Assembly: GCA_964020155.1 (NCBI GenBank) | Contig: OZ026550.1 | Coordinates: forward strand, 947,501-1,011,500 | Length of the DNA stretch: 64,000 nt | Origin: Chondrilla cf. caribensis | Taxonomy: Eukaryota; Porifera; Demospongiae; Chondrillida; Chondrillidae | Direction: 5' to 3' | Part shown: positions 33,916 through 47,642 of the stretch, in pieces | How the letters are laid out: every line of letters begins with the position of its first letter | Position numbering within the stretch: position 1 is the first letter of the stretch | Position numbers and translations under genes: made by a program | The notes under the pieces: generated by a model | The model's input: only the letters and a program-made list of their open reading frames with translations | Database searches by the model: none | Told to the model about the DNA's origin: nothing

Positions 33916-35374
33916 ATGATTTTGACAATCGTGATTTGCTCGTGTTTCCTCGTTTTCTCAGGAGAGTGTGTCGTGTATAAATCAGCTAAAATCGGTGGAG
34001 ATGGAGGTGACGGAGGAGAGAGTTTCGACGACTTGTCGGACAACAATCTACTTGACGGCGAACCTATTTTCCGCCTCGTCAATGTCCTCCTTAAGGGGAC
34101 AAATTTAAACACTGATGTTTATGGACTTCATACCATTCAGGCCAAGTATGCTATCCTCAATGGGACCAGTCCAAGTACACTAGATGGGCACCTGTTTAGT
34201 GGTAGTCGTCCAGTCGTACCAGAAGTATGCATTCAGTTTGAGCTCAGTGGAAGAGAAATAATTGAGAAGATGTACGGTCATTACAGGAGCGAAGAAATTG
34301 AGGTTGGTTTAAATATATGTTATTAATCATCTTGCTTTCGATATCAGAAGGGCCAATGGGACTATTCAGCATTACGGTTATGGGGCGAAAAATGGTGCCA
34401 ATTTCACAGTTCTTGGACCAATTGTGGGGTTTTATGGTGATGTGGGATATGTTATTGACAGCATCGGAGCTTACGTTGACCCTTCATTGTGGCCTGATCG
34501 TCCCTCTCGACTTGTGATGGGTCCTACTGGAGGAAGGACATATGGCAGTGGAGAAGATTCTGAGGATTCATTTGACCACAACATCAAACTTGGAGAACCG
34601 TTTGTGACAAGAATAGCAGAATTGGTGATCTTCTACAGTACCAGTCGTGGTGTGAATGGTATGTCTGTTGTGTATGAGGACAATTTGAGAAACAGCTCAA
34701 CCATCAGCTCTGGAAGTACTGGTGGAAAGAATGTGACCGTGATCTTTGAGTTAGGAGACTACATCAAAGTACTTGAAGTCAATAGTGCTGGTGGCCAAGG
34801 TATGTATTTCTATTTAATGTATAGGTTTGGTTAACGTTGTATGTATGTATATAGAATATGTACGTATGTGTGTACTATAGGGCTTGGAATCGGCTGTAAT
34901 TTTCAGTACATGTAGTTGCTAATTGATTAATTGATCGATTAGTAAAGTAAAATTAGGAAAGTAAGTGAGTGGGTATAAACTGACGCTAATCCCACTTTAT
35001 TAGACTGAGTAGTCATCCAATAGATGTGAAGTGGAGTCTATAGAGTCCTCTTCCTTTACAGTTTGTGTTATATTATATAATATTATAATGACCTTCTACT
35101 TGATACGTGTCTGATCAGTATAATACTGTACTTTGTACATATACTTTCATAGCCTCTGGAAATTTTTGCCTGCCTGGATTACAGCTCACTGTTTTCAGAG
35201 CTGGTAGAGAAGTAAATGAAACAATTCCTGTTGGTACTATAAACAGTACTGAATCAACAACACTGAGAACAGATGGTCCTGTTGTTGCCTTCTATGGACT
35301 TATTCAAGGTAGGAATCAGCCATGTATTGCCAGACTTGGTGGCTACAGATTACTGCAAAGCTCAGAGTTGAATA
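33916..35374 (+). CDS. Ectodomain part 1: signal peptide and two jacalin-like lectin domains
   Basis: The first 20 residues (MILTIVICSCFLVFSGECVV) form a signal peptide. Domain 1 starts IGGDGGDGGESFDD near residue 26 and ends IVGFYGDVG...IDSIGAYVDP near residue 185 in the intact paralogue. Domain 2 starts GPTGGR near residue 202, runs through VTRIAELVIFYS, GMSVVYEDN and FELGDYIKVL, and ends in exon 2 with VVAFYGLIQG...IARLGGYRL. The Gly-rich opening, the I-x-x-I-x-I-x-Y strand and the VGFyG...IgaY ending are hallmarks of the jacalin beta-prism fold (established). In this copy the exon breaks at ATATATG near 34,315 and meets a TAA at 34,324. Confidence 0.8.
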
Positions 35375-47300: not shown

Positions 47301-47642
47301 CATTTGATTGACATTTTATTCTTTACATTCATTTTAGATAAAACACCATCTGATGTTGGCCTACGTAAAGTTGCAATGAAAATTGGATCTTGTGATCTTT
47401 TGGCTGTGGACTTGGGGATTCCCCTATCCCACATTGATAGCCTCCCAGACGGTCCCCTCAAAGGATTGCGTACCCTAGCATACTGGAGGGATGGGAGGTG
47501 CCACAGCTCCTTTCCTACTACATGGGGCTTTCTTCTGGAGAAAGTAGAAGGTGTATCCGGACGGAATGTGGCAGATGAACTGAGAGAGAATCTCTCCAAA
47601 GACCCAGCTTGTGTGAATCCTCCTCCTCTAAATGCACAATAA
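33916..47642 (+). CDS. Lectin-CCP-TM-CARD-CARD-ZU5-Death receptor, copy 1 (16 exons)
   Basis: A predicted single-pass surface receptor joining sugar-binding modules to death-fold adaptor domains. Exons by splice site: 33916-34799, 35153-35374, 36922-37089, 38503-38685, 39003-39185, 39554-39742, 40269-40442, 40619-40711, 41554-41586, 42932-43261, 43823-44152, 44969-45067, 45443-46056, 46175-46324, 46396-46654, 47338-47642. Boundaries from exon 1 to exon 13 and the last one are phase 1; the two on either side of 46175-46324 are phase 0. Exon lengths sum to 4,216 nt, exactly 2 nt short of a whole frame, and that deficit is the TA contraction in exon 1 (near 34,315), so this copy is frameshifted in the lectin region. 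It starts 2.0 kb from the divergent CARD exon at 31.9 kb. The model rests on splice logic and the paralogue, not transcripts. Confidence 0.8.
36922..39742 (+). CDS. Ectodomain part 2: four CCP-like four-cysteine modules
   Basis: Four exons of 168-189 nt, all phase 1-1: 36,922-37,089; 38,503-38,685; 39,003-39,185; 39,554-39,742. Each encodes CTVPDIPGC-type opening, LLGETPQQI, a middle Cys in LAFACGN or similar, and a final RCRENGTWEE-type ending. Cys spacing and the C-x-x-x-G-x-W ending resemble sushi/CCP modules (family knowledge), though the module is short and the match is partial. N-glycosylation sites (NSS, NVT, NAT, NGT) are frequent. The second and third exons are almost identical, so they duplicated recently. 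Confidence 0.7.
37178..37354. mobile_element. 177-bp pogo/Tigger-like MITE in receptor intron 3
   Basis: Inverted ends CAGTGAAACCTCCCTAATCC and GATTAGAGAGGTTTCACTG, flanked by TA on both sides (37,176-37,177 and 37,355-37,356). The paralogous intron in copy 2 (about 58,840-58,850) reads straight through AAATATATACTAATATACGC without the element and with one TA, so it is the empty site. The insertion is younger than the duplication, or was lost precisely. Confidence 0.9.
39474..39526. repeat. (TA)n tract in receptor intron 5
   Basis: About 26 TA units directly before the acceptor of the fourth CCP-like exon. Copy 2 has only about six at the same place (60,610-60,620), so length differs strongly between paralogues. 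Confidence 0.9.
40269..41690 (+). CDS. Transmembrane helix and tyrosine-motif tail
   Basis: Exon 40,269-40,442 encodes a short Thr/Ser-rich stem, a hydrophobic helix (VIVGVVSGSLILILAFVIVG then LGIIILLLC) and a basic stop-transfer QFRKKSKQ. Exon 40,619-40,711 adds a tail ending ENPLYDQLE; exon 41,554-41,586 adds APDEVNITSEG. A second partial tail exon at 41,638-41,687 encodes NEIVLDNPHYQQLG with the same donor, but I find no in-phase acceptor for it. NPxY can bind PTB domains and YxxL resembles half an ITAM/ITIM (established motif knowledge). In copy 2 one exon combines the SERNSQSMSRN and NEIVLDNPHYQQLG parts. Confidence 0.75.
42795..42890. repeat. (CA)n before first CARD exon
   Basis: About 30 CA units with CACACGTGTACATAAACATACACA after them. 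The same trailing sequence follows the longer tract at 63,026-63,178 in copy 2. Confidence 0.95.
42932..44152 (+). CDS. Two tandem CARD exons of the receptor
   Basis: Exons 42,932-43,261 and 43,823-44,152, each exactly 330 nt and phase 1-1, encode homologous 110-residue domains: FMEKYRDRFMEYVP, then KWEVYHIID, KAPPSD, ILFRYFRKNGSLDAIRKMSD, LGEDMREDL. The alpha-helical pattern and length fit a CARD of the death-fold superfamily. Assignment is by pattern, so another death-fold subtype (for example DED) is possible. Exon and preceding (CA)n tract duplicated together. Confidence 0.72.
43661..43770. repeat. (CA)n before second CARD exon
   Basis: CA tract with GTGCACGCACACATGCGC interruptions, 50-150 bp upstream of the exon at 43,823. 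The same tract begins at 63,953 in copy 2, where the window ends. Confidence 0.95.
44153..44968. other. Receptor intron 11
   Basis: No coding signal is supported. The 77-codon frame at 44,443-44,676 has no matching splice phases and no recognisable domain. Confidence 0.5.
44969..46654 (+). CDS. Linker and ZU5-like/UPA-like region of the receptor
   Basis: Exon 44,969-45,067 is a short linker. Exons 45,443-46,056, 46,175-46,324 and 46,396-46,654 encode about 340 residues. The first part has HKGGIFPLHPFGLVG, VSVEYAILLSGPFKLP and LKLRHWA, a beta-rich pattern like the ZU5 domain of UNC5/ankyrin-type proteins, where ZU5 precedes UPA and a Death domain (established architecture). The later part would occupy the UPA position and ends in a Ser-rich linker before the Death exon. 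The ZU5 assignment rests on pattern and position, so it is moderate. Confidence 0.6.
45078..45345. repeat. (CA)n microsatellite of about 115 units, receptor intron 12
   Basis: Starts 10 bp after the donor of exon 12 (CCAAA/GTATATACACAATACAC), so expansion reaches almost to the splice site. Confidence 0.95.
46778..47024. repeat. (CA)n microsatellite, receptor intron 15
   Basis: About 245 bp of CA with CATGTACACA interruptions near 46,927-46,960. Confidence 0.95.
47338..47642 (+). CDS. C-terminal Death-domain exon of the receptor
   Basis: Last exon, entered at phase 1 (ATTTTAG acceptor) and ending at TAA 47,640-47,642. It encodes about 100 residues with the Death-fold pattern: VAMKIGSCDLLAVDLGIPLS, then LKGLRTLAYWRDG, a conserved TWGFLLEKV and VADELRENL. 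This matches the LGi...I...L..W......TW..Ll..L pattern of Death domains that follow ZU5 in UNC5-type proteins (family knowledge). It would recruit other Death-domain adaptors. Confidence 0.75.

Follow-up and report, generated by a model that had tools for sequence, protein, structure and literature searches.

Can a single sponge gene carry a lectin on the outside of the cell and two kinds of death-fold domain on the inside? The question is raised by a locus of Chondrilla cf. caribensis that lies in a 64,000-nucleotide stretch of contig OZ026550.1 (C5:947501-1011500 in the numbering used here). This whole stretch is called the window, coordinates without a prefix are window positions, and the genome searched comprises 137 Mb in 37 contigs. 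The first-pass annotation had proposed a receptor of undescribed architecture at this place, with two jacalin lectin domains, four CCP-like repeats, a transmembrane (TM) helix, NPxY-type motifs, two CARDs, a ZU5-like domain and a Death domain. To judge from its sequence, the locus, here copy A, most likely encodes a type I membrane receptor that was put together by exon shuffling and duplicated in tandem. That the part from the lectin through the TM helix to the second CARD forms one receptor is given a chance of roughly three in four. That the full chain through ZU5 to Death is one gene appears, on the same grounds, an evenly balanced call.

Copy A spans 33916-47642 on the forward strand and consists of 16 exons (Table 1). 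All 15 junctions are GT-AG, without frame clash. With two missing nucleotides in E1 allowed for, the junctions are in phase 1 throughout except E13/E14 and E14/E15, which are in phase 0. The joined exons 3' of that lesion stay open for 1304 codons with E12 and 1271 codons without it, and the chain ends at a TAA at 47642 in the Death-domain exon. This open, phase-compatible chain, with 15 GT-AG junctions and one stop, supports a single gene. The DNA holds the TM helix, ZU5, the exons in the UPA position and Death in the expected succession, and their phases agree. The donors of CARD1, CARD2 and ZU5 are among 7 of the 889 GTs of the locus that fit MAG/GTRAGT at 8 of 9 positions. No other first exon was found for the CARDs or ZU5, no gene finder having been run. 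The exon structure, coordinates, phases and single 2-nt lesion first described for this locus were borne out by the exon borders, the open chain and the comparison with a second copy. A mini-exon candidate at 41554-41595 was rejected because it is incompatible with E9b; the intron between them would measure only 16 nt.

The second copy, copy B, starts at 55608, and its DNA is 87 to 97% identical to copy A by block. Its order is lectin, three CCP-like exons, TM, a fused NPHYQQL exon, CARD, CARD. The claim that lectin and Death domain belong to one gene holds in part: the open chain and the lectin-TM-NPxY-CARD-CARD order of copy B favour it, while the joining to ZU5-Death is putative, the succession CARD-ZU5 being seen only here among the matches scored. 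Copy B is the likelier working gene, since copy A as assembled is broken in E1.

Table 1. Exons of copy A and exons identified in copy B (window positions)
Feature	Position	Strand	Remark
E1: signal peptide (by eye), first jacalin domain, start of weak second	33916-34799	+	Pfam Jacalin; 2-nt deletion breaks frame
E2: end of second jacalin-like domain	35153-35374	+	weak collinear match to first domain, E 0.010
E3: degenerate CCP/Sushi repeat	36922-37089	+	51-55% identity to two C1 exons
E4: degenerate CCP repeat	38503-38685	+	
E5: degenerate CCP repeat	39003-39185	+	
E6: degenerate CCP repeat	39554-39742	+	
E7: juxtamembrane stretch, TM helix, RKKSK stop-transfer	40215-40442	+	phase, hydropathy; conserved in B, C
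E8: cytoplasmic tail, NPLYDQL	40619-40711	+	
E9b: cytoplasmic tail, NPHYQQL	41612-41689	+	copy C: ENPHYQQL
E10: CARD 1	42932-43261	+	predicted fold
E11: CARD 2	43823-44152	+	76% identical to CARD 1
E12: truncated 5' end of Roc-like GTPase exon	44969-45067	+	91% to start of GTPase exon C5:940360
E13: ZU5 domain	45443-46056	+	predicted fold
E14: between ZU5 and Death (UPA position)	46175-46324	+	52% at C5:884411
E15: between ZU5 and Death (UPA position)	46396-46654	+	66% at C5:884642, weakly on C14
E16: Death domain (sub-threshold) and stop	47338-47642	+	86% to C5:886073
Copy B E1: intact jacalin exon	55608-56493	+	open frame; Pfam Jacalin 50.5 bits
Copy B CCP-like exons	58589-58756, 60136-60324, 60649-60837	+	three, vs four in A
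Copy B cytoplasmic NPHYQQL exon	61840-61932	+	fusion of E8 and E9
Copy B CARD 1	63225-63554	+	CARD 2 past window end

The first lectin domain passes Pfam Jacalin (PF01419) with 35.1 bits at a cut-off of 22, the copy B exon holds a full-length domain, and jacalin lectins in the PDB were matched at E 0.00068-0.0024. Of the two jacalin domains proposed this one stood, and the second is weak: no Pfam family was matched by E2 alone or by the joined domain, and it was assigned from two weak matches that run collinear with the first domain (the second at E 0.012). E2 is conserved in copies B and C and in relatives on contig C1. None of the CCP-like exons of the window matched Pfam Sushi (PF00084). 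A homologous exon on C1 (one of two E3-like exons, the one tested) passes it with 21.9 bits at a cut-off of 20.7, which makes the four repeats of the window look like degenerate derivatives of CCP. A match of the joined repeats to the HicB antitoxin family (PF15919; 43.4 bits in three stretches, cut-off 27) was rejected as a chance motif counted three times, and a match to HRM (PF02793) lies just below its cut-off (23.9 vs 26.2). The TM segment has a mean hydropathy of 3.45 across 21 residues and is followed by RKKSK. This peak supports the TM call, and the NPxY motifs are present as NPLYDQL and NPHYQQL. No NACHT or LRR was found in the exons scanned (E1-E7, E10, E11 and E13-E16). Elsewhere in the genome, two-domain jacalin genes in single open frames at C25:1.60 and 1.87 Mb are the best Pfam jacalins.

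Pfam scans of one exon at a time detected neither CARD nor ZU5 nor Death, so fold and profile comparisons were used for these domains. AlphaFold2 predicted the CARD exon as a six-helix death fold (pLDDT 93.5) closest to the Apaf-1 CARD. Pfam CARD (PF00619) matched none of 23 family members, one of which matches CARD_2 at E 0.022, and the CARD exons of the locus are absent from the 33 genome-wide PF00619 matches. Both proposed CARDs are thus upheld by fold and fail the Pfam cut-off. The close CARD-exon proteins (n=23) differ in how they end. Nineteen end in YS and one in RY at the frame stop; the remaining three, CARD1 and CARD2 of copy A and CARD1 of copy B, continue with MEQLTSG and then a donor. 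These three read on into a shared strong donor, as internal exons would. A broken CARD exon of the same family, with an internal frame shift, lies at 8153-8444; it may have closed a GTPase-CARD gene that is now dead.

The predicted beta fold of E13 is closest to the ZU5 domains of ankyrin and UNC5b (3g5b). The structure matches were obtained by Foldseek, with VIA-align as a second look at the same matches; GAIN domains are interspersed among the ZU5 rows, and two of them outrank UNC5b. Pfam ZU5 (PF00791) did not match the window exon; it matched 3 of 13 family members at best E 0.014, and 5 of 46 at best E 0.019. E16 did not reach the Pfam Death cut-off, and one of 19 family members matches, at E 0.023. 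When a profile for this exon was compared with the PDB, 7 of 10 rows were Death domains (best E 0.066), among them ankyrin-3, CRADD, NRADD, PIDD and p75NTR. The ZU5-like call is supported by predicted fold, then, and the Death call by this sub-threshold profile; neither passes Pfam. E14 had no Pfam match, and UPA was not found by Pfam. At least 34 of 59 ZU5 loci have Death following within 5 kb. There is precedent for a death-fold exon ahead of ZU5: at two loci on C14 a Pfam Death lies 701 and 1038 bp upstream. These loci are part of an array of ZU5-like exons at C14:830-1124 kb, in which Pfam Death comes after many of the exons and at two loci stands ahead of them as well.

The module also occurs at C5:883388-886372, where ZU5, E14, E15 and Death are 90, 52, 66 and 86% identical to the copy A exons; no CARD match was found in the region examined there. 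Point estimates of dN/dS between the two are 0.30 for ZU5, 0.39 for E15, 0.56 for Death and 0.71 for E14. The ZU5 value (18.5 changes at 133.5 synonymous sites, 21.5 at 475.5 nonsynonymous sites) suggests that this exon is under constraint. The E13 acceptor is identical at C5:883 kb, so E13 looks like an internal exon that needs an upstream partner. Some 1 kb ahead of the C5:883 kb module, on its upstream side, there is a Tc5/pogo-like transposase on the minus strand (C5:880.7-882.3 kb; L005 5691-7319). A 73-bp minisatellite at 49636-50371 is also found after copy B and after the C5:883 kb locus, near the 3' edge of the duplicated units. Just past the copy A Death exon, a Ras/Rab-type GTPase exon on the opposite strand (48641-49339, minus; Pfam Ras E 3.2e-23 for 48884-49336) extends into a CA microsatellite, and a Ras-type P-loop exon on the same strand also follows copy B.

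Several observations weigh against a single gene, and they are taken here together with the explanations that they favour. First, E1 of copy A is without 2 nt present in copy B, as comparison of the two showed, so that the ATG frame from 33916 stops after 136 codons. The A/B substitution ratios run from 0.31 to 1.18 in eight exon comparisons with small counts, several of them near-neutral. Along with the chimeric E12, these findings would fit an entire copy A that is a decaying duplicate, with function residing in copy B or in neither. This seems very unlikely, as all other exons of copy A are open with GT-AG borders, and the deletion, a TA within a short TA-rich run, could be a polymorphism or an assembly error.

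Second, copy C (C5:1274862 downward) has a lectin exon, one CCP-like exon, a TM exon and ENPHYQQL, and no CARD, ZU5 or Death match was found in the 13.6 kb past its tail. The homology between A and C ends at 42026, upstream of CARD1, and read-through of the E8/E9 donor yields a short tail and a stop in both copies. The working receptor might then stop at its NPxY tail, as copy C may, and the CARD and ZU5-Death exons would be shuffled in and never spliced to it. Such an ending is improbable. Both CARD exons are open in A and in B, with shared acceptors and strong donors, and the 47 nucleotide changes that separate CARD1 from CARD2 in copy A, across 109 codons, have produced no stop (w 0.58). 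Contig C1 holds four lectin matches of more distant kinship, and the two examined carry CCP-like exons.

Third, the CARD2-ZU5 junction unites segments of different origin with GTPase-exon debris between them. E12 was ruled out as a domain of its own because it is the start of a GTPase exon; it is cut off by a CA microsatellite, is optional for the frame and, by its sequence, is probably a relic. The locus is therefore a mosaic of lectin receptor, CARD exons, GTPase debris and ZU5-Death module. The Roc-like GTPase family, so labelled from sub-threshold Pfam matches, has 83 genomic matches, on C2, C3, C5, C6, C8, C9, C12, C14, C16, C19, C20 and C22. Several close relatives of the CARD exons have an exon of this family upstream of them, at a distance of 2.6 to 2.9 kb. 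Within 7.5 kb downstream of the GTPase exon, at least 13 of the 83 have a CARD and at least 34 a Death exon, which are lower bounds from a tally of all 83 GTPase matches, 40 of 150 CARD matches and 54 of 150 Death matches. The family is often followed by a CARD-like or Death-like exon, and these appear to be interchangeable output exons.

The phase agreement across this junction is weak support, because symmetric phase-1 exons, as nearly all of these are, fit together whatever their order. A CARD directly before ZU5 was seen nowhere else among the matches used: 148 CARD matches (the best 150 of 219 candidates, two partial fragments left out) and all 59 ZU5 matches, one other of which has a same-strand CARD upstream within 12 kb, at 9.6 kb. 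The Death counts of this neighbourhood tally come from the best 150 of 206 candidates and 25 of 101 Pfam Death matches and are lower bounds. Past CARD2 of copy B the assembly reads N for about 5 kb, and homology to copy A resumes beyond. A further ZU5 exon, P0136, is 90% identical to E13 over 79% of its length. Its database contig equals in size (527140) that of P0078 and P0088, the proteins matched to CARD1 in copies A and B, and from this agreement copy B probably carries ZU5 too.

The locus could accordingly be two units: a lectin-TM-CARD-CARD receptor that ends past the CARD2 donor (SGKKQLR-stop) and a separate ZU5-UPA-Death gene derived from the duplicated C5:883 kb module. The homology to C5:883 kb starts 34 bp before E13 and spans the Death exon and about 3 kb more, the GTPase-exon debris separates the two parts, and in several related genes CARDs are the apparent last exons after a GTPase. 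There is also an AATAAA at 44496, poly-A signals in AT-rich introns being judged uninformative. No first exon for a ZU5-Death gene was identified in 44153-45442, where no gene finder was run and which holds a 78-codon ATG frame, and the E13 acceptor and the CARD2 donor are good and phase-matched. On balance a split is unlikely, though it deserves serious weight. The 78-codon frame itself (44440-44676, plus strand) lies between CARD2 and E12, and 72 of its 78 residues are the same in copy B.

The farthest-reaching reading is that both copies encode single chains. CARDs of the GTPase family and an UNC5-like tail would have been grafted onto a lectin receptor that is still CARD-less at copy C, and glycan binding would be coupled directly, free of adaptors, to CARD-type and Death-type assemblies. 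Its probability is put at about 0.4. The reading preferred here, at even odds, is that of copy A as one receptor of this build. The data show the exons, the open chain, the tandem copy and the folds predicted for CARD and ZU5; a single transcript, a surface location, a ligand and partners of the receptor are inferred. The protein would have a signal peptide, two jacalin-like domains of which one is sure and one weak, CCP repeats of degenerate form to the number of three or four, and one TM helix. Its cytoplasmic side would carry the NPxYxQL tail and the CARD pair, followed by ZU5, a region resembling UPA, and Death. The jacalin part may bind a glycan, either microbial or, in allorecognition, self, and this putative binding would cluster the receptor. 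Clustering would pair the CARDs and could seed CARD assemblies with caspases or CARD adaptors, with no separate bridging adaptor. The ZU5-UPA-Death part may act as a supramodule of UNC5 type, keeping the Death domain bound or setting it free. An NPxYxQL motif suggests uptake via clathrin or PTB adaptors, and the tail may control uptake of this type.

The cytoplasmic half has its closest parallel in the UNC5 netrin receptors (UNC5b, 3g5b), whose ZU5-UPA-Death supramodule the predicted tail would resemble, UPA being assigned here by position. The UNC5 ectodomain consists of Ig and thrombospondin repeats, whereas here it is jacalin and CCP-like, and two CARDs precede ZU5. PIDD1, NLRP1 and CARD8 are cytosolic. 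They are autoproteolytic sensors with ZU5-UPA or FIIND; here a membrane lectin leads. The available text of PMC3210808 gives the autoproteolysis motif after ZU5 in PIDD and FIIND proteins as HF/S or SF/S. The window exon reads QFC at this site (its relatives have H in 39 of 46 and S in 37 of 46), so self-cleavage is doubtful, and the ZU5-UPA-Death part would behave as in UNC5b and not as in PIDD or NLRP1.

Death-fold chimaeras of Amphimedon and amphioxus likewise arose by lineage-specific shuffling of death-fold domains onto many partners, according to the parts of two sources consulted. The Amphimedon source describes 357 proteins in one death-fold-linked (TRADD-N) expansion, up to half of them uniquely built (PMC8195603), and the other describes amphioxus hybrid genes that unite receptor and activator domains in one protein (PMC2575513). 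Neither names a jacalin lectin or the CARD-CARD-ZU5-Death order in those parts; a count of words in the texts gave 0 for 'jacalin' in PMC8195603 and 0 for 'lectin' in PMC2575513. In the sponge Dysidea avara, the portion of PMC12909245 at hand reports large CARD and Death repertoires, NLRs that carry CARD or Death, and NACHT-ZU5 proteins. In contrast to those NLRs, the present locus has a lectin ectodomain and a TM helix, and no NACHT or LRR in the exons scanned.

In the literature searched (open-licence papers only), no jacalin receptor with CARD or Death was found. The architecture can be called undescribed within those papers, while shuffling of death-fold domains is already documented in sponges. 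What appears new, as far as the sequence goes, is the lectin-led CARD-CARD-ZU5-Death order. No other locus with the full copy A order was found among the matches scored. As for its occurrence in other proteomes, a search with an early model of the full chain (1428 residues, scored over 1-1340) gave no match at E <= 0.01 among 7994 candidates scored. This null is not evidence of absence, because the relatives found later are exon-length frames.

Copies A, B and C suggest the steps by which such a receptor may have been assembled: the lectin receptor alone, then the addition of CARDs, then that of ZU5-Death. If one transcript carries all of these parts, a single membrane protein would unite the recognition of sugars with death-fold output of two kinds. 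How early animals couple cell death to the sensing of microbes or foreign tissue at the cell surface could then be tested directly in one gene.

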